In this document: in pieces, positions 12,429 to 28,625 of the stretch
Layout of the letters: the number at the start of each line of letters is the position of its first letter
Numbering within the stretch: the first letter of the stretch is position 1
Source of the DNA: a virus
Length of the DNA: 28,625 bases
Direction: 5' to 3' (one strand)
Virus record (IMG/VR): IMGVR_UViG_3300001596_000054
Span: 1 to 28,625 of that record
Translations under genes and position numbers: made by a program
Notes under the pieces: model-generated
What the model saw: the letters and a program-made list of their open reading frames with translations, nothing else
Told to the model about the DNA's origin: nothing
Databases searched by the model: none

Positions 12429-13432
12429 GCCTGCGCCTCCCGTTTTCTCAGAATCGATAGCGCCTCAGCCACATCGCTAGCCTCGCCTTTTTCAACCAGC
12501 TCGACCAGTTGTTTGGCTCTGGCATCAGGATCGGAGGCAGGAGGATCCGGTACGTCATCACCTGGGGCAACCTCGTTAAAGTTGACGATGCCCTTCGGCA
12601 AATCGCCGAGCAGTTTCTGCCACCCCTGACGTGGGGACAGCTGCACCGTCTTGCCGTCAGCCTCAGCAAAATCGACTGTGACCTCAGTCCCATTCGGGGT
12701 CGCCATCAAACAATCCACTACCCGCGATTTAAACGCGGGTGGGATCCGCAGATCGTTCGGATTGCTAGGATTGCACAACCCCTCAGCAAAAGAGACTATA
12801 TCGCGGCGATCGGCTTCTGCCTCTCGCTCCGCTAATTGCTGTTCACGTTCAGATAACGTTTTTTCTCGTTCAGATAAATCCACTGTACTGTTCCATTTTG
12901 ATTGACTGTCCTTTCGTTGAGTAGGGGATGTCTCCAGGCTGGGATCCCAGCCTGGAGAGGGCCCATTTTCAACGTCGTTCCGTTTTGTTGAAAATTCTTG
13001 TTCCGACAATTCAACAATGACGATACCTTCTTCGGTGGAATCATTAAAGTTGATGGGATTCAAGCCTTTGATTGCGGGTGGCTGTGCGCCCAACACTGCA
13101 AGATGCCTGAAATAGCATTGTCCGGGTGCAGGGTTGTTGGGGTGACCCGGCATGTAGAAACTAGCGCTGACTTTTTTGTAGCGACCTGCCTGCATTAGCT
13201 CGGCGAAATCTGCATCGATCTGTCGGGGGGATGCCTGGAGGGTAGAGCCATTTAGAGATAGCGCCTCAATCCACCCATAGGCAGGCTCGTTGTCTCTGGG
13301 ATGACCGATTACGATCGGGGCCTCATGCAGCGTCGGATCGTAGGATTCAACGGCTTCCTGCAGCTGAACCAGGCCGATTCCTGCGGCTTTTGAAACCTTA
13401 TTTACCCTACAGATCTGCCACCATTTCGTCAT
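12425..13432 (-). CDS. Mu I-like prohead protease with C-terminal scaffold
   Basis: The 335-residue product resembles Mu gpI: an N-terminal protease domain and a C-terminal scaffold part. The first 130 residues contain HEAPIVIGHPRDNEPAYGWI (36-55), YKKVSASFYMPG (85-96, probable catalytic Ser region around S89/S91) and YFRHLAVLGAQPPAIKGL (107-124, conserved His110). Residues 185-215 are a coiled coil with repeated LSERE/LAERE units, fitting an internal scaffold. In Mu a shorter scaffold (Z) is made from the same gene; no clear internal start was confirmed here. The gene starts just after the putative late promoter at 13462-13510. A 28-bp perfect palindrome (12931-12958) lies in the linker (residues 159-168) and a 7-bp-arm hairpin at 12720-12740. 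Confidence 0.9.
   Translation of the reverse strand: MTKWWQICRVNKVSKAAGIGLVQLQEAVESYDPTLHEAPIVIGHPRDNEPAYGWIEALSLNGSTLQASPRQIDADFAELMQAGRYKKVSASFYMPGHPNNPAPGQCYFRHLAVLGAQPPAIKGLNPINFNDSTEEGIVIVELSEQEFSTKRNDVENGPSPGWDPSLETSPTQRKDSQSKWNSTVDLSEREKTLSEREQQLAEREAEADRRDIVSFAEGLCNPSNPNDLRIPPAFKSRVVDCLMATPNGTEVTVDFAEADGKTVQLSPRQGWQKLLGDLPKGIVNFNEVAPGDDVPDPPASDPDARAKQLVELVEKGEASDVAEALSILRKREAQA
12931..12958. repeat. 28-bp perfect palindrome inside the protease gene
   Basis: The left half TCTCCAGGCTGGGA (12931-12944) is followed directly by its exact reverse complement (12945-12958). It is in frame and encodes SPGWDPSLET in the linker between protease domain and scaffold coiled coil. A perfect 28-bp palindrome is not expected by chance in a window of this size. 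Confidence 0.95.
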
Positions 13433-14911: not shown

Positions 14912-16593
14912 CACTCACCCTCCTGTACCTCATACCAGCCTGCTGCTCGGGTTGCCACCAGGGCCTGCTGCATCACCTCAGCAAATTGTTCTGAGTCCAG
15001 ATCGGGGTAGAGCCGATCCAATCGCTCAACAAATTCCGATAGCGATTTAGAGTCTCGTAACTCAGCACGAACCCGATCCAGCCAGCCCTGAATCTGCGGC
15101 CCTAGCTGCCGCTGCAGGCGACGGCGATAAACCTCTGCCGTCGATTCCTCCTGCTCTGCAAAATTGGCAAAATCCGGTAGCTGAAACCCGATTTTGGGCG
15201 GTGCATTAACCTCGCCTCCCAGAATCGCCGCCGCATCGCCAGGGGACATATCAGGAAATGCAAGGCGCAGGATCCCCTCAGCCGCCGATGGCGATAATGA
15301 CCCTGCTGCCACCGCCTTAGCCAGATCCACCAGGTCTCTGATGGAACTGGGATGGATGAATGCAGCGCCGTCCTCGCTGAAATTGATGCCTATGCCCCTG
15401 GGAGTAGCGGGCTGTGGCTCCACTGCCTCGTAGCCCTCGCCGTACTCTGCTTGCATCGACTCTGGAGTGCGACGATATCCCATATCAAACAAAATTTTGT
15501 CCTTCTCTGCCTGTGCCTTTAGGTTGGTCTCAGCCACACGATGGCTGACTTTCGGGCAGGCTGCCCCCGGATAGTTCAGGGCGCATAGAGGGCTAACGAC
15601 TCTATCGATGAAGGATTCGTCAATCAATCGACTATCCGCCTGCACCAGATCCTGGCGTACGCTGAGATGAACCTTAGATTGAGATAGGGACGCCCCCGCA
15701 TCCGTAGTCAGGGTTTGCCCCACAGTGACCTTGCTGATAGCCAGATCCATGCGGGTTGCCAGCGCATCATAATCGGCAGTGCCGTTCCGCGCTGCCTCCA
15801 ACAGCTCAACCATCATGCCTTCAGGGATGATAATTCCAGCATCGGTCTGGATGGCTGCCAATGCCTCCAACAGTTTAGCCCGTTCCGGATCGGTCGCATT
15901 TCGGTCGTACTTGCCGACAGCAGTGGGCTGGCCAAATTTCTCCAAAAAAGTAAGCCAGAACTTGATGTCGTTGCGCTTGAAAAACGTTGGCCAGTATAGG
16001 GCCGACCCAAACCCAGAGCCAAATGGGTCGTCATCGTTATCCCCGCCGACCGTGGTGACCCAGAATTTATTCGGGTACATCTCCTCAACTGGTTCCCCCT
16101 GCCAGTTGGAGCGAGTCCGCAACCGCAGCCGCCCCTGTTGATCGAACGTAAACCGTCGCGGCTTCTTGGTTTTGATGTTGTCTGCAAACACATGTCGGCC
16201 ATCGTTCGCGAACAATAGCTCGGCAACAGAAAACCCGTACAACCGGCAGAATAATTTTTTGTCAACCAGGTTAGCCCATCGCAAATGATCGATTTGCTCG
16301 CGGATAAAGTCCGCCGCCATTCGATCGATTTTGCGTTTCCCTCCAGGGGTTACCTCGGTTTCGCGGGAAGTTAGCGCCAGCCGCCGCTGTTCAAATGTTG
16401 AAGCGACTTGAGGATCCTCTAGCAATTTTTCGTAGATGCGATAGTCATATCCCTTGTATCGCAGGATCCGATCCTGGGGATAGCGAATCTCCCCAATCCA
16501 GTCCGCTGTGATGTCTCTGCCATCGCGACTGGTGGCAATCTCCCGATTCAGGAGAGGCCGCTTAATTGGTTCGCCACGGTGGTTTAGGAGCAT
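14911..16593 (-). CDS. Portal protein, DUF935 (Mu gp29-like)
   Basis: The 560-residue portal forms the ring through which DNA enters and leaves the head. Recognised blocks are YEKLLEDPQVASTFEQRRLAL (about residues 52-75), DNDDDPFGSGFGSALYWPTFFKRNDIKFWLTFLEKFGQPTAVGKY (about 185-230), IIIPEGMMVELLEA (about 255) and VTVGQTLTTDAGASLSQSKVH (about 290-312). The C-terminal block DRLYPDLDSEQFAEVMQQALVATRAAGWYE also matches the Mu protein. The ATG at 16593 (MLLNHRGEPIKRP) aligns with the start of Mu gp29 (ILDISGQPF region). A GTG at 16635 would add 14 residues and overlap the previous gene by 37 bases. Confidence 0.93.
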   Translation of the reverse strand: MLLNHRGEPIKRPLLNREIATSRDGRDITADWIGEIRYPQDRILRYKGYDYRIYEKLLEDPQVASTFEQRRLALTSRETEVTPGGKRKIDRMAADFIREQIDHLRWANLVDKKLFCRLYGFSVAELLFANDGRHVFADNIKTKKPRRFTFDQQGRLRLRTRSNWQGEPVEEMYPNKFWVTTVGGDNDDDPFGSGFGSALYWPTFFKRNDIKFWLTFLEKFGQPTAVGKYDRNATDPERAKLLEALAAIQTDAGIIIPEGMMVELLEAARNGTADYDALATRMDLAISKVTVGQTLTTDAGASLSQSKVHLSVRQDLVQADSRLIDESFIDRVVSPLCALNYPGAACPKVSHRVAETNLKAQAEKDKILFDMGYRRTPESMQAEYGEGYEAVEPQPATPRGIGINFSEDGAAFIHPSSIRDLVDLAKAVAAGSLSPSAAEGILRLAFPDMSPGDAAAILGGEVNAPPKIGFQLPDFANFAEQEESTAEVYRRRLQRQLGPQIQGWLDRVRAELRDSKSLSEFVERLDRLYPDLDSEQFAEVMQQALVATRAAGWYEVQEGE

Positions 16594-17995: not shown

Positions 17996-19593
17996 CAGTT
18001 CCACCCCCGCCAATCAATGCTCCTACCCACCGAGCCAAACCCGGCCCCATTCCCATTACGGAATTCCGTAATGGGATCTCGATCGTCAGCAAATGATTGC
18101 AGGCTCGCACGGGGTTGTCCCAGGGCCTGGAACTCGATCGGCGATCCCTCCTGGCAACTTGCATACCACATCAGCAGGCCAGCCACGGCACCATCTCCAT
18201 GCCGCTTCTCGCCATCCGCACCCTTGATTTTCGTCTCTGGCAATTTTGGGATGCCACTAATTTGCTCTACCAAACGGTGGTCGGCTTTCAAATCGGCATC
18301 AGCAGGCAGAACGACTTTTCCATCTTGCAGGCCAGTTTTGTAACGGGGGAACCACTCTCCATAAAAAGGATTTGATAACGCGATCTGAGAAATATAAGCG
18401 ATGCCACATTTCTGCATTGCCCGCTCTGCCTGGTATTGCCCATTCCCACGGGAGTCTAAAGCCCCGTGGGTGAACCGTGGCAGACCATCAATCAGCGCAA
18501 ACAGCACCTGCTCTTGTTGCTGGAACGGCACGTTGCGTAACTCCAACCCAAAGGGGCAGAAGCGCCGTAGATCGGGAAGCTCTTGAGCGGGCAGGATATA
18601 GGATAGATCGCCAGAGCGAGCAAAGTCCTGTCCGAAAAAGCTGCGTAGATTTGGGTTCAGCTGCAATAGTAATGGATGCAGCCATTCCTCGATCCAAGCT
18701 TGTGTGGTCAGCTGGCGGCGGCGGTCGGGCAGTGTAGCAAACTCATCCTCGTAGGACAAACGCAACACTGGCAATCCCTGCTCCATGCAGCTCTCGATCA
18801 AAACGCCAGATAAATAAGCCCCGCCACTCTTTTTGGGAATGCACAGCAGTTCTTCCTCGGCATCCTCACCGAATAAATTAAAGATTTCCTGCCGCCAGAT
18901 TGCTTCTGCCTCCAAACTCCAGGGCCGCTTCCAATGCAAGCACATCCGCCGATACAACCCCTCTGCTAGTGCATTTTCGAAGGTGATGAAGTGCCGCGAA
19001 TAAGGTAGTTTGCCTTCCAGAACTTCTTGCTCAAGATCGTAGTAGGCATTGTCCATGCCGTTGTATGTCGTGATGATATTGATCCGACCGCCCCATATCA
19101 TCAGAGCTTTGGCCGCTTTCAGCAGTGCGAATAGGTCGTCATGGAACGCTGCCTCATCAATCACCACCCGCCCCTGGCGACTGCGAAAATTGCGCGGACT
19201 GCTACTCAGAGCTTCAATTCGATGGCCGGAATTAAAATATATTCGAAAGATGAGGATACTTTTTGACTCATCCCCATCTCGAAAGATTTCTTCGGATTCA
19301 TCGATTTCAGATGCAGTCAGTTGATATGCCTTTGCCCAATCAGCAGCATCTGAGATAAAGCCGCGCGCCATGTCTTTATCGTACCCGATGTAGTAGGTAC
19401 TTTCTCCCTCTCGTTCGGCAGCACTCAAGGCACAATCACTCGCCTCGGCCCAGGACAAACCAATGCGGCGTGACTTAGTGCATAACTTCACCTTGCTGCG
19501 ATCGGCAATCCATCGCTGCTGATAGGGCAACAGCAAACCAGGCACGTCTTCGGGTGCCAGGGTGGAGGCTCTCAGGGTAAACCGATCGTTCAT
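17995..19593 (-). CDS. Terminase large subunit (Mu gp28-like)
   Basis: The large terminase packages DNA into the head and cuts it. The 532-residue protein has a Walker A-like segment CTKSRRIGLSWAEA (38-51), Walker B RVVIDEAAF (142-150, D146/E147) and a coupling motif TTYNG (175-179), followed by PYSRHFITFENALAEGL. The C-terminal nuclease half has FFGQDFARSGDLSYI and THGALDSRGNGQYQAE, typical of the Mu-like group. The start overlaps the small subunit stop by ATGA. A 26-bp perfect palindrome sits at residues 506-514, near the C-terminus, and may be an insertion. A hairpin at 18445-18470 falls on the conserved HGALDSRGNG codons. Confidence 0.93.
   Translation of the reverse strand: MNDRFTLRASTLAPEDVPGLLLPYQQRWIADRSKVKLCTKSRRIGLSWAEASDCALSAAEREGESTYYIGYDKDMARGFISDAADWAKAYQLTASEIDESEEIFRDGDESKSILIFRIYFNSGHRIEALSSSPRNFRSRQGRVVIDEAAFHDDLFALLKAAKALMIWGGRINIITTYNGMDNAYYDLEQEVLEGKLPYSRHFITFENALAEGLYRRMCLHWKRPWSLEAEAIWRQEIFNLFGEDAEEELLCIPKKSGGAYLSGVLIESCMEQGLPVLRLSYEDEFATLPDRRRQLTTQAWIEEWLHPLLLQLNPNLRSFFGQDFARSGDLSYILPAQELPDLRRFCPFGLELRNVPFQQQEQVLFALIDGLPRFTHGALDSRGNGQYQAERAMQKCGIAYISQIALSNPFYGEWFPRYKTGLQDGKVVLPADADLKADHRLVEQISGIPKLPETKIKGADGEKRHGDGAVAGLLMWYASCQEGSPIEFQALGQPRASLQSFADDRDPITEFRNGNGAGFGSVGRSIDWRGWN
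18051..18076. repeat. 26-bp perfect palindrome near the end of the terminase gene
   Basis: TCCCATTACGGAA (18051-18063) is followed by its exact reverse complement (18064-18076). It is in frame and encodes DPITEFRNG in the terminase C-terminal tail. It lies about 55 bases before the start of the collar gene. Confidence 0.95.
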
Positions 19594-20120: not shown

Positions 20121-20444
20121 CTAACCTCCACGCGCAGGCCGCTGGATTCCGACCGGGCAATCAACCGCATATTCCACTACATCAGTTCCAGCTGCGAGGA
20201 TATAACCGCAATAGGAGCCGTCTTCATGTTTTCTCAACTCGATCAGTTTTTTGCCATCCAGGTATTCGAGATATTTTCGGACGTCCTGCAGCGAGCAACT
20301 CGTATCGACCGACTGCAAAACCCTCACCAGCAGGGCATCGGCAACCCCTGTTGTACGTCCAACATCCACCGCCTGTAGAGTATGCCAGCGGTTTTGTTCC
20401 CGACGCGCGGTCTCCAATATCTGGGCAGCAACCACTTCATCCAT
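20121..20444 (-). CDS. Mu gp26-like winged-helix protein
   Basis: The 107-residue product resembles the Mu gp26 / VpaChn25_0724 family. It has a winged-helix arrangement (helix TTGVADALLVRVLQSVD, helix SLQDVRKYLEYLDGKKLIEL, then a wing strand YCGYILAAGTDVVEY) and the typical ending GIQRP near residue 103. The role in Mu is not defined. It lies between the first late gene and the small terminase, the same order as Mu gp25-gp26-gp27. The start overlaps the previous gene by 8 bases. Confidence 0.85.
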   Translation of the reverse strand: MDEVVAAQILETARREQNRWHTLQAVDVGRTTGVADALLVRVLQSVDTSCSLQDVRKYLEYLDGKKLIELRKHEDGSYCGYILAAGTDVVEYAVDCPVGIQRPARGG

Positions 20445-20841: not shown

Positions 20842-21284
20842 GTTTTTTGTGCCACCTGGCAGATCCGCCCCGGACTAACCCGATACTGCTCTACCAGTTC
20901 AACAACGGAGCAACGTAAATAATCGCGTCGAATCTGCGCGTCGCGCTGCCGCCGCTGCCGCCGCTGTGCCAGTGTTTCGCGGCTGCATACTCGCACATAC
21001 TGACCCGGCAACAGTAACCGGATCCGCTCCGCCATATCTGTTCCCACAGCTTCTACCAACCGTATGGACACCCGTCGCTCTGGAGTGCAATATAGCCGCC
21101 GCTCCCTTGATGTCGTCGCCGTGCCGATGGTATCGCACAACTGCAGTGCCACATCAACACCAATCACATCAGCAATCAGGCGCAGGTTGCCGCGAAAATC
21201 CTGCACCTCATAACTATCAGGCTGCTGTGGTTTCGTCTGCTGCGACCTGTTCTTCTGCTGTGGTTTCGTCTGCTGCGGTTTCAT
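20835..21284 (-). CDS. Mor/C-type transcription activator of late genes
   Basis: The 149-residue product resembles Mor and C of Mu. It has a dimerisation-like part LRLIADVIGVDVALQLCDTIG (34-54) with RLYCTPERR, and a C-terminal helix-turn-helix AQIRRDYLRCSVVELVEQYRVSPGRICQVAQK (116-147). Such proteins bind upstream of late promoters and recruit RNA polymerase. It is the last early gene, and its stop codon lies in the repeated element suggested as its binding site. The first 22 residues are repeats of KPQQ/NRSQQ from the tandem DNA repeat shared with the upstream gene. The two genes overlap by 68 bases. Only one such activator is seen, so it may do the work of both Mor and C. Confidence 0.8.
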   Translation of the reverse strand: MKPQQTKPQQKNRSQQTKPQQPDSYEVQDFRGNLRLIADVIGVDVALQLCDTIGTATTSRERRLYCTPERRVSIRLVEAVGTDMAERIRLLLPGQYVRVCSRETLAQRRQRRQRDAQIRRDYLRCSVVELVEQYRVSPGRICQVAQKTV

Positions 21285-21705
21285 CTACTGCGACCTGTTC
21301 TTCTGCTGCGGTCTTCTTTTCCTGATACTGCACCAGTTCCTCCAACTGGCGTTTAAAATCTACCAATTGATACTCGGTGAGCTGCTGTGTTGAGGTTTTG
21401 CCGCCGAAACGGTTGGACATCAGCGTATCGAACTGTTTGTCTGTCCATCCCACATCTCTCAGCTGTTTGCGATATACGCCAATCGCGGCCAATGTATCGG
21501 CGTGGTCTGTGACATCATATTTCGTACCACCTTCACGAAACTGATCGAGCCATTGTTTTAGATCCTTACCCCGCTGTTCGATATCTGCCATCTCTGCCAA
21601 CATCCCCTCGCGCTTCACTGTCCGATAAAATTCCCGCAGCTCTGCCAGCAGTTGCTCGGTTCGCTGTTCAATTGCTTTCCTGGCAATAGTCAACGGGTCA
21701 GCCAT
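21217..21705 (-). CDS. Hypothetical early protein with repetitive acidic tail
   Basis: I do not recognise this 162-residue protein with certainty. The N-terminal half is helical and charged (RKAIEQRTEQLLAELREFYRTV). Residues 85-130 contain GWTDKQFDTLMSNRFGGKTSTQQLTEYQLVDFKRQLEELV, similar in pattern to a short module found in cyanobacterial and phage recombination or replication proteins (G-W-t-...-fGk.s...Lt..ql..f...L). The last 30 residues are acidic repeats, EEQVAVDETAADETTAEEQVAADETTAA, from the same tandem DNA repeat that encodes the start of the Mor-like protein in another frame. It overlaps GemA by 16 bases. Confidence 0.7.
   Translation of the reverse strand: MADPLTIARKAIEQRTEQLLAELREFYRTVKREGMLAEMADIEQRGKDLKQWLDQFREGGTKYDVTDHADTLAAIGVYRKQLRDVGWTDKQFDTLMSNRFGGKTSTQQLTEYQLVDFKRQLEELVQYQEKKTAAEEQVAVDETAADETTAEEQVAADETTAA
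21223..21303. repeat. Tandem repeat read in two frames
   Basis: One 33-base unit (21223-21255) is followed by a 48-base unit (21256-21303) that repeats it with an inserted 15-base sub-unit; a partial copy follows. All unit lengths are multiples of three. On the minus strand one frame gives the acidic EEQVA/DETTA tail of the 162-residue protein. A second frame gives the basic KPQQ-type start of the Mor-like protein. Confidence 0.88.
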
Positions 21706-25878: not shown

Positions 25879-26172
25879 CTAGATATCGTTTGGTAGCAGC
25901 CGATTCAACTGATCGAGCGCGGCCTTCAGATAGGCCCTGGCTGCTCCAACGTTGGGCAGTTCGGCCAACAAACAGGTTTCAGCACTGCTGGTATACGAAC
26001 GAGCCAGGTTCAGGCTCTCCAGTTCATCGACTGCGGCACAAATTTCCTCGGCGCGGGCGATGCGTTCAACATCATATCGCCGCGACTTAGTTGCAGTCGT
26101 CTTACCCAAAAGCCCTTCCAATTCTGCCAGGAACTCATCTGATTCCGGCACATTCGCGATATAGATGTTCAT
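25879..26172 (-). CDS. Hypothetical small protein between transposase and MuB-like genes
   Basis: I do not recognise this 97-residue protein. It is helical and acidic, with RYDVERIARAEEICAAVDELESLNLARSY and an amphipathic C-terminal helix AARAYLKAALDQLNRLL. No metal or nucleotide site is visible. It starts by ATGA overlap with the transposase stop and has GGGGAGG just upstream. Lying between the transposase and its ATPase, it might be a small partner of the transposition complex, but this is position only. Confidence 0.72.
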   Translation of the reverse strand: MNIYIANVPESDEFLAELEGLLGKTTATKSRRYDVERIARAEEICAAVDELESLNLARSYTSSAETCLLAELPNVGAARAYLKAALDQLNRLLPNDI

Positions 26173-28625
26173 ATGGCCTCCCCTTGATTGATGTGGTTTA
26201 AAAACTGTTGGCGCTCTGCTGTCGAATCGGCTAAAACGTTTAGCGCCCCGGCCCCGGCTGCTTGACGGACGTAATGGTCGGCCCAGGCCGCATCGTCTGG
26301 GCCAATCGCTTGCCCCGACTTCCAGGCCCGGTAAATGCGACTGATGCGATCGTTGGGTTCCTCAACCTGTTGCCGTGCATCGGCAGCGTCCATCTCATCC
26401 CGGATACGTCGCACCTCGGCCTCGCTGAGCTGCGGGGCCTGGACGGGTCGGCGCTGCAAGGCATTCAATGCAGCAGCAGCAGCATCCAGAGCCGGGGTCT
26501 GGTGGGCGATCGTTGGTTGCCGAAATGGGATCACTTTGCCTGCCTGTTCGGCCTGGGCCTCCAAAATTTCCTGACCAATGGATTCAGTTTTGGCGGCGCG
26601 GGCATAGCGCTTCATTTGTTTGCGCCCCTCGGATATCCGCTTCTGCTGACGCTTTTTGGCTCTACTAGCAACCTCCTGGCGGTTGATGCCTGTGCGTTCC
26701 GGGCATTCGGCAACGCAAATAAATTTACCGTCACCGTCAAAACAGTAGATGCGCCCCAGATCGCAGGGATCGTAACGGACGTGTACTCTCTGTTTGATAT
26801 AGCCGTCATCGCCATCTGCTGCCAGTTCAGGCGCAATATACCAGGCATTATCTATCCGTATACCGTTATCCTTTTGCACGGTACGGGTACCGCCTGCTGG
26901 AGCCTCGGCCAGCAGCATATCCAATAGCCGCTCGTTGCCAATGGTGCGCTGTTGCCACCCTGTCGCCTGAGTTAATACCTGGATAGGGGTCTGGCCGTTT
27001 AACCCACCATGGGGCCGACCCGAATAGGCTGCAATCCATTGATCGCAAAACGCTTGCAGGGCAGCGGCATCCATCGCCACCTCAACAACTTTCCCCCGAC
27101 TCATCATGCGATCGGCAAAACTACGACGGGACTCGATCGCTTTGCGATCCGCAACGTTGTGGCCGATAAATCCTGGCAACAGTTCTACCAGATCGTGACT
27201 AAACGTCTTGAAAAATCGTTCGATGTGCGGCTTTTTCCAGGGCTGAAAGGGGGGACAGAGTTCGTGTTTAATGCCCAGTCCGGCAAAACAACGAGTTAAA
27301 TGATCGCTCGTGTAATCTTTTCCATTATCGGTTTTGGCAGTTTCAGGGACGCCCCAATCTAGCAGGGCTTTGCGAGCCAGGGCAGCGATGGCGGTCGCTT
27401 TGCTGGTTTTGGACACCAGCAATTTTGCCCGTCGCGTATACACGTCAACGACGCCGATTAAGGCATAGCGGCCATCGGTTAACATCACGTCGGCAGGGGT
27501 GCTGTCAAATTCCCATCGCTGATTCGGGCGGATGATACCTTCACTGGCATCGCCAAACGCTGCCATATATTGACCCTTCCATTTATCCGGATCTGAGATC
27601 GCCATGTAGAGTTCAGCATTCTCTGCCTTCCAGGATTGGATCCAGCGGTTCAGATTCGCCTCGGTTGGCAGGTCTAAACCCTGCTGGTTAAAGCGGGTTT
27701 TCACGGCCTGATAAAGGCTGCGGCTGGTGATGTGGGGATGTTGTGCGATCGTCCCTAACACAAACTCCCGCACCTGGGGCAGGCGATCGATTTTGCTGCT
27801 GCGCGGTGCGTACGTTTTTCCAGCTAGGGCCGCAAGGTTGCCCTGCCTCAGTCGTGACCGTTGACGCGCCAGGTTGGTGCGACTCAGTCTGGGCAGTCGA
27901 GTCCGCACGGATTCGTCGATCTCGATCGTGCCTGCATTCCAGGCATCAGCAAATTTCAAATCTCGCTCGACAACTTTCTCGATGCCGTGGGCTGCACACC
28001 AGTTCTCCTGGGCGCGGAGGACGGCGATCCATGCGTCGATCAGGGCCTGAGTTGTTTCGTCCAGGAGCGAAGGTTGCTCAGTGGTACATGTACCACTGGG
28101 ATTTTCTACCTGATGAGGAAAGCCCGGAGCAGCACTACTACCATCGGTTACCCAATCAGAACCGACCTGCCCCGGACTAGAGCCAGCTTGCAATTCTATA
28201 TCAGACCCAGTCGCAAATTTGCGACTGAGTACGTCTGGATGAGGAGGAACGCCCGGAACATCAACGTCGGTGACTAGACAGGCGACTCGTTCCGGGCAAA
28301 CTTGCCCAGTGGAATATATTCCACTGGGATTCTGAGATTGATGAGAAAAACCCTGGATGTGGCTATTAAGGATCTGCGGTTCTCCAGGGCGATCGGGTTG
28401 CGCCTCTATATATATAGATGTGGGCGCGGCTTCTTCTATTTGATAATGCTGCCGCACGGACTCGCGCCATTCGGGGGGGAGGGCTGATAGGGGATATTCC
28501 ATGCCGCCGCCGCGCGCTTGGCGTTTGCGTCCGCCGCTCCAACCTTTGGAGCGTTTATGGACAGCTCGCTTCGTAACGCCAATTACCGTCGCAATCTCAA
28601 CCAGGGAGTAATACAAATCGTCCAT
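26169..28625 (-). CDS. MuA-like DDE transposase
   Basis: The 818-residue protein joins phage ends to target DNA. Residues 1-50 match the MuA N-terminal winged helix (SLVEIATVIGVTKRAVHKRSKGW, then GGMEYPLSALP). Residues 190-330 hold the end-binding helical part. The DDE core has D374 (WEFDSTPADV), D433 (TDNGKDY) and E469 (KPHIERFFKTF). The beta-barrel and basic helical tail follow (IYCFDGDGKFICVAECP, KKRQQKRISEGRKQMKRYARAAK). The C-terminal 90 residues would contact the MuB-like ATPase. The linker at about 85-190 has no Mu counterpart and is made of palindromic repeats. The ATG at the window edge fits the usual MuA start, though bases upstream are not visible. Confidence 0.95.
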   Translation of the reverse strand: MDDLYYSLVEIATVIGVTKRAVHKRSKGWSGGRKRQARGGGMEYPLSALPPEWRESVRQHYQIEEAAPTSIYIEAQPDRPGEPQILNSHIQGFSHQSQNPSGIYSTGQVCPERVACLVTDVDVPGVPPHPDVLSRKFATGSDIELQAGSSPGQVGSDWVTDGSSAAPGFPHQVENPSGTCTTEQPSLLDETTQALIDAWIAVLRAQENWCAAHGIEKVVERDLKFADAWNAGTIEIDESVRTRLPRLSRTNLARQRSRLRQGNLAALAGKTYAPRSSKIDRLPQVREFVLGTIAQHPHITSRSLYQAVKTRFNQQGLDLPTEANLNRWIQSWKAENAELYMAISDPDKWKGQYMAAFGDASEGIIRPNQRWEFDSTPADVMLTDGRYALIGVVDVYTRRAKLLVSKTSKATAIAALARKALLDWGVPETAKTDNGKDYTSDHLTRCFAGLGIKHELCPPFQPWKKPHIERFFKTFSHDLVELLPGFIGHNVADRKAIESRRSFADRMMSRGKVVEVAMDAAALQAFCDQWIAAYSGRPHGGLNGQTPIQVLTQATGWQQRTIGNERLLDMLLAEAPAGGTRTVQKDNGIRIDNAWYIAPELAADGDDGYIKQRVHVRYDPCDLGRIYCFDGDGKFICVAECPERTGINRQEVASRAKKRQQKRISEGRKQMKRYARAAKTESIGQEILEAQAEQAGKVIPFRQPTIAHQTPALDAAAAALNALQRRPVQAPQLSEAEVRRIRDEMDAADARQQVEEPNDRISRIYRAWKSGQAIGPDDAAWADHYVRQAAGAGALNVLADSTAERQQFLNHINQGEAI
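28079..28098. repeat. 20-bp perfect palindrome in the transposase linker (copy 3)
   Basis: CAGTGGTACA (28079-28088) is followed by its exact reverse complement. In frame it encodes PSGTCTTE (residues 176-183). On the coding strand it is preceded by CCGGGCTTTCCTCATCA, shared with the other copies. Confidence 0.95.
28208..28227. repeat. 20-bp perfect palindrome in the transposase linker (copy 2)
   Basis: CAGTCGCAAA (28208-28217) is followed by its exact reverse complement. Extending to 26 bp leaves one mismatched pair. In frame it encodes LSRKFATG (residues 133-140). It is preceded on the coding strand by CCGGGCGTTCCTCC. Confidence 0.95.
28251..28297. repeat. Inverted repeat between palindrome copies 1 and 2
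   Basis: GCCCGGAAC (28251-28259) and GTTCCGGGC (28289-28297) face each other across 29 bases. Both lie in the transposase linker between two of the perfect palindromes. Confidence 0.9.
28305..28328. repeat. 24-bp perfect palindrome in the transposase linker (copy 1)
   Basis: CCCAGTGGAATA (28305-28316) is followed by its exact reverse complement (28317-28328). In frame it encodes PSGIYSTG (residues 100-107). It shares outer CAGT/ACTG arms with copies 2 and 3, but the inner 12 bases differ and are still a perfect palindrome. Confidence 0.95.

Follow-up and report, generated by a model that had tools for sequence, protein, structure and literature searches.

How can three palindromes in one stretch of a gene carry different cores, each of them perfectly self-complementary? 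The question is raised by the transposase gene of a phage, IMG/VR virus record IMGVR_UViG_3300001596_000054, studied here in the window, that is, the whole stretch of 28,625 bases that was analyzed (positions 1 to 28,625 of the record). The genes recognized in it encode a transposase, a transposition ATPase, a terminase, a head maturation protease, and a major head protein, and this combination of a MuA-type transposase and transposition ATPase beside Mu-type head genes (PHROG 310, 296, 976, and 1005, plus the terminase) indicates that the window is a Mu-like phage. A preliminary description had reported three in-frame palindromes of 24, 20, and 20 bp with CAGT..ACTG arms in the transposase, a shared block of the type CC(A/G)GG..TT.CTC before each of them, and an extra 9-bp inverted repeat at 28251 to 28297. 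We found all of these, and both the coordinates and the frame of the palindromes were confirmed:

26169 to 28625, minus strand: Mu-type transposase gene, 818 amino acids, with rve and Mu-transpos_C domains (PHROG 310, E = 2e-101; PF00665, PF09299)
28038 to 28445, minus strand: variable N-terminal linker of the transposase, approximately residues 61 to 196 (from the protein alignment and translations)
28329 to 28358, minus strand: 30-nt block before palindrome C, ATCCAGGGTTTTTCTCATCAATCTCAGAAT
28305 to 28328: palindrome C (24 bp), CCCAGTGGAATATATTCCACTGGG, 12 of 12 pairs, coding for PSGIYSTG
28230 to 28259, minus strand: 30-nt block before palindrome B, GTTCCGGGCGTTCCTCCTCATCCAGACGTA
28206 to 28229: palindrome B, coding strand CTCAGTCGCAAATTTGCGACTGGG, with a perfect inner 20 bp at 28208 to 28227 and T-G at pair 2
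28101 to 28130, minus strand: 30-nt block before palindrome A, GCTCCGGGCTTTCCTCATCAGGTAGAAAAT
28077 to 28100: palindrome A, coding strand CCCAGTGGTACATGTACCACTGAG, with a perfect inner 20 bp at 28079 to 28098 and C-A at pair 2
28251 to 28297: 9-bp inverted repeat GCCCGGAAC/GTTCCGGGC, arms at 28251 to 28259 and 28289 to 28297, the second arm being the start of block B
28405 to 28418: TCTATATATATAGA, a further perfect palindrome of this linker (14 bp), of a size of which 1.35 are expected per window

Read on the coding strand, block and palindrome together form an in-frame unit of ∼54 nt (30 nt, then 24 nt), present in three diverged copies whose starts are unevenly spaced, by 99 and 129 nt. The block copies, which within the window are confined to this linker, differ from each other at 10, 12, and 15 positions per 30 nt (33 to 50%), and shuffle tests indicate that they are homologous (p < 0.001 in two pairwise comparisons, 0.012 in the other). 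The same kind of test detected no homology between units in the sequence that follows the palindromes, and Tandem Repeats Finder reported no array in the linker.

Within the palindromes, the outer arms CAGT..ACTG are invariant in all three copies. The inner 12 bases had been described as differing completely, which is wrong: the half-sites GGAATA, GGTACA, and CGCAAA agree at positions 2, 4, and 6, that is, in 6 of the 12 core bases, and because half of the core is shared, the three cores, judged by their sequence, are related by descent. The differences between copies lie at pairs 7, 9, and 11 of 12 and are all symmetric. None of the 30 inner pairs (pairs 3 to 12 in three copies) is broken, as the earlier claim of perfectly self-complementary cores implied; only pair 2 is, in two of the three copies (A and B). 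When we simulated unconstrained drift from a common palindrome, at 5 to 25% change per copy, the combination of zero broken and at least three variable pairs never occurred; unconstrained drift almost never yields paired change of this kind. With at least five such paired changes, the earlier reasoning that they reflect either selection or a copying process is supported.

Several pairs have flipped by transversion (G-C to C-G or A-T to T-A), for which a G-U intermediate is impossible, and each of the five long palindromes in the window is self-complementary across its central four bases. Because the symmetry spans the center, where the loop of an RNA hairpin needs none, these data favor symmetry that is kept at the DNA level and not as an RNA hairpin. 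Scanning for 12-pair arms without a spacer, we found 11 or more pairs at five centers, where 0.05 such centers are expected, and exactly 10 pairs at none; the symmetry is therefore all-or-none. The residues coded by the palindromes vary between copies (SGIYST, SGTCTT, and SRKFAT), and the matched changes affect first, second, and third codon positions.

The two long palindromes outside the linker, which are absent from the preliminary description, lie in other genes of the window:

18051 to 18076: TCCCATTACGGAATTCCGTAATGGGA, perfect over 26 bp, in the part of the terminase gene that codes for the variable C-terminus
12931 to 12958: TCTCCAGGCTGGGATCCCAGCCTGGAGA, perfect over 28 bp, in the part of the head maturation protease gene that codes for a variable linker

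Hence, the window holds five perfect palindromes of at least 20 bp, compared to ∼0.05 under a Markov model of the window and 0.32 per 28.6 kb in 160 other phage loci (Poisson P[≥5] = 2e-5), a density ∼15 times the phage average. If the linker trio is counted once, three palindromes remain, with P(≥3) = 0.004 against the same loci. The excess sits at spacer 0: inverted repeats with arms of at least 10 bp number five at spacer 0 and two at spacers 1 to 12 in the window, versus 20 and 126 in the phage loci. The terminase and protease palindromes are without the linker-type arms and, mostly, without the block. An in-frame RATCCCA is common to both and to two linker copies, and the terminase palindrome ends in CCCA..TGGG, with the spacing and codon phase seen in the linker. 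A repeat family uniting all five through their flanks is unsupported; a single match of 9 nt, linking the flank of the 12931-to-12958 palindrome with the region of block B, is weak after six tests. In relatives of the terminase tail and the protease linker the sequence is unalignable; L093 lacks nine residues at the site of the 28-bp palindrome, which would fit an insertion, weakly.

A cyanobacterial host is plausible for this phage, if not established. CGATCG occurs in the window at 5.9 times the expectation from base composition (8 to 13 times in cyanobacterial plasmids), and the motif AWK.G...HY...AAG.GAL..LADS at the C-terminus of the transposase (window positions 26169 to 26400) is common to the cyanobacterial plasmid transposases L209 and L210 and absent from the compared transposases of L003 and phage HS6. 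A palindrome-rich cyanobacterial background as the source of the excess was rejected, with 305 kb of cyanobacterial plasmids containing 0.38 palindromes per 28.6 kb, about the phage level. The very small dispersed repeats of cyanobacteria are likewise short repeats. As with HIP1 (PMC4390886), we are dealing with short palindromes in DNA high in CGATCG, but the phage palindromes are longer and not a fixed word, and HIP1 itself (GCGATCGC) is absent from the window, although GCGATCG occurs. Several palindromic 6-mers that would be expected are also missing across the whole window (CCGCGG, CGGCCG, AGGCCT, CTCGAG, and ACCGGT), and together with the missing GCGATCGC this looks like restriction-site avoidance. 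At 21222 to 21292, a 15-nt tandem repeat of 4.5 copies lies at the overlap of two genes and codes for short peptide repeats in both frames.

The preliminary description had taken the palindromes for an element that spreads by landing in a disordered linker. The linker is indeed variable and, in the protein alignment, ∼60 to 70 residues longer than those of the nearest transposase relatives, to which it cannot be aligned; the spreading is what our scans do not support. CCCAGT..ACTGGG arms in viruses (IMG/VR) enclosed a palindromic core in 0 of 80 loci among the matches listed, and CCCAGTGG..CCACTGGG arms in GTDB in 3 of 80 among the matches listed, all three representing one conserved coding site of Polaromonas/Variovorax (Burkholderiales). 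In these two scans, 80 of 105 and 80 of more than 120 matches were examined. Longer arms in viruses had a palindromic core in 1 of 18 loci (L005), AT-rich and in an unrelated context. We rejected the arm-pattern matches in both collections as related elements, their number being at chance level, and IMG/VR scans for the unit pattern and for exact copies of two single palindromes returned nothing. Thus, the pattern search for arms plus a palindromic core that had been put forward as a check came out, within the collections searched and for patterns that fix the arms (copies with other arms would escape), as it had been said to if the idea were wrong: there were no matching elements elsewhere. 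Two other palindromes of note are CCCAGTGGCTGGCCAGCCACTGGG, conserved in Polaromonas and Variovorax genomes (L111, L122, and L135), and GGGGACAGATTTAAATCTGTCCCC, of 24 bp, found twice in identical form (16099 to 16122 and 20182 to 20205) in a Mu-like phage contig (L058).

A close relative of the phage was likewise not found in the collections searched, the best transposase match being 48% and the best terminase match 54% identical; a transposase query in GTDB and a protease query in IMG/VR found no relative, and the linkers of the transposase relatives (at most 48% identical) contain no palindrome of at least 20 bp. A split or broken Mu-type transposase gene on a Chroococcidiopsis plasmid carries a 30-bp perfect palindrome, GCCAAAAGCGGGAGCGCTCCCGCTTTTGGC (L208:20577-20606), and its relative L210 has at the corresponding place imperfect arms around a 9-nt center. 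This pair is likely a parallel to the linker palindromes, with its direction unproven.

The best explanation, which we consider on balance probable, is that a segment of the linker was duplicated locally and that the palindrome arms were rematched by template switching during replication. Local duplication would have produced three in-frame units of ∼54 nt that later diverged; whenever one arm mutated, a strand-to-strand switch at the inverted repeat could have copied one arm over the other, re-creating the symmetry with a new core, and the palindromes would need no function. The protein tolerates such changes because its linker varies in length and sequence, as the comparison with relatives shows. 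This reading is based on what we observe: the symmetry persists although the sequence changes, and the copies are confined to one linker and absent elsewhere in the collections searched. Two further observations are those expected of template switching: the arms are perfect, with no excess of imperfect repeats, and related copies show matched differences in both arms. Because intrastrand switching needs a loop, a spacer of zero would require the interstrand form, which counts against the explanation. We infer duplication and switching without seeing them, because close relatives that would provide a before-and-after pair were not found in the collections searched. The same process probably also gave rise to the palindromes of the terminase tail and the protease linker, at other places where the coding sequence is tolerant. 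Two further points weigh against parts of this scenario: the nonhomologous sequence after the palindromes would speak against plain tandem duplication, unless it has diverged, and template switching, as a general process, does not by itself explain the ∼15-fold density in this phage.

The processes invoked have precedents. Nematomorph mitochondrial genes contain perfect coding inverted repeats of up to 284 bp in conserved protein regions, whose binary identity was interpreted as pointing to repeat conversion (PMC6649704). Our case shares with them perfect inverted repeats in functional coding genes, all-or-none identity, and a proposed origin in repeat conversion or template switching (PMC6649704), but the phage palindromes are of 20 to 28 bp, have no spacer, and lie in variable linkers. 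In yeast, template switching homogenizes the arms of coding inverted repeats (PMC8604942), and in RNA genes it creates perfect stems de novo (PMC8794818). There, as here, several matched changes occur in both arms and nonsynonymous changes are tolerated (PMC8604942, PMC8794818), yet those events were inferred on trees of related sequences, whereas ours are inferred from three paralogs within a single genome.

Possible but doubtful are two bolder variants: a palindrome drive, in which an active process of the phage or its host makes and re-perfects zero-spacer coding palindromes unusually often, or a minimal selfish palindrome, the unit of 54 nt, that multiplies in frame. We regard as unlikely that block and palindrome are a mobile element of ∼54 nt, inserted three times in frame like a miniature Rickettsia palindromic element (RPE). 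Homology that stops at the block and palindrome, the uneven unit spacing, and the like ends and phase of the terminase palindrome would suit such an element, and in-frame palindromic DNA within genes is known from RPEs in Rickettsia and from intragenic GTAG/CGTC REPs in other bacteria (PMC10969869, PMC3733652). All palindromes of the window lie in open frames, as putative in-frame insertions would. However, RPEs (∼150 bp) and REPs are families dispersed over many genes and strains, whereas the block occurs in this one linker and the IMG/VR and GTDB scans yielded no related dispersed copies among the matches listed, the conserved Burkholderiales site being the one palindromic-core match among those from GTDB; neither a GTAG nor a CGTC tag ends the three linker palindromes, and cores that share half of their bases would descend from one another.

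Equally unlikely, in our judgment, is that the palindromes are functional DNA sites, such as cruciforms or sites for dimeric proteins, with symmetry maintained by selection. The invariant outer arms, the symmetry through the center, and the position early in the transposase gene agree with this, but at a dimer site the letters themselves would be conserved and not symmetry alone, and pairs 7, 9, and 11 vary. Moreover, the other two palindromes of the window have little of the arms, and near matches to CAGT-N12-ACTG elsewhere (22 versus 9 expected, with one mismatch) are nonpalindromic inside.

Selected hairpins in the transposase mRNA, for control of translation or stability, are improbable. 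The linker RNA folds better than shuffled sequences (z = −4.9), with stems of 8 to 10 bp at each palindrome, but the self-complementary central bases would be the unpaired loop of an RNA, no G-U pair is found among the 30 inner pairs, and no Rfam family matched. Slightly less probable again is selection on a repeated peptide motif, PGFPHQxxNPSGxxSTGQ, with the palindromes as a by-product: GF.HQ..NPSG..(S/T)T..Q is common to copies C and A, but the motif is absent from transposase relatives, and both the variable palindrome-coded residues and the changes at all three codon positions speak against it. Chance or an assembly artifact is very improbable: some phage contigs do have assembly-derived end palindromes (e.g., L029:1-66), but five palindromes of this kind are improbable by the Markov model and by comparison with the 160 control loci, and each of them falls within an intact reading frame.

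Changes that occur in pairs are usually taken to prove that a structure is selected. Here, because the protein linker is variable and the symmetry runs through the position of the loop, they are better read as the trace of a mutational process, which calls for caution in RNA-structure calls. Under the template-switching explanation, the linker palindromes document on a small scale how this process acts naturally in a phage, and should the excess of palindromes hold true for this lineage, an unusual habit of replication or repair would be indicated.
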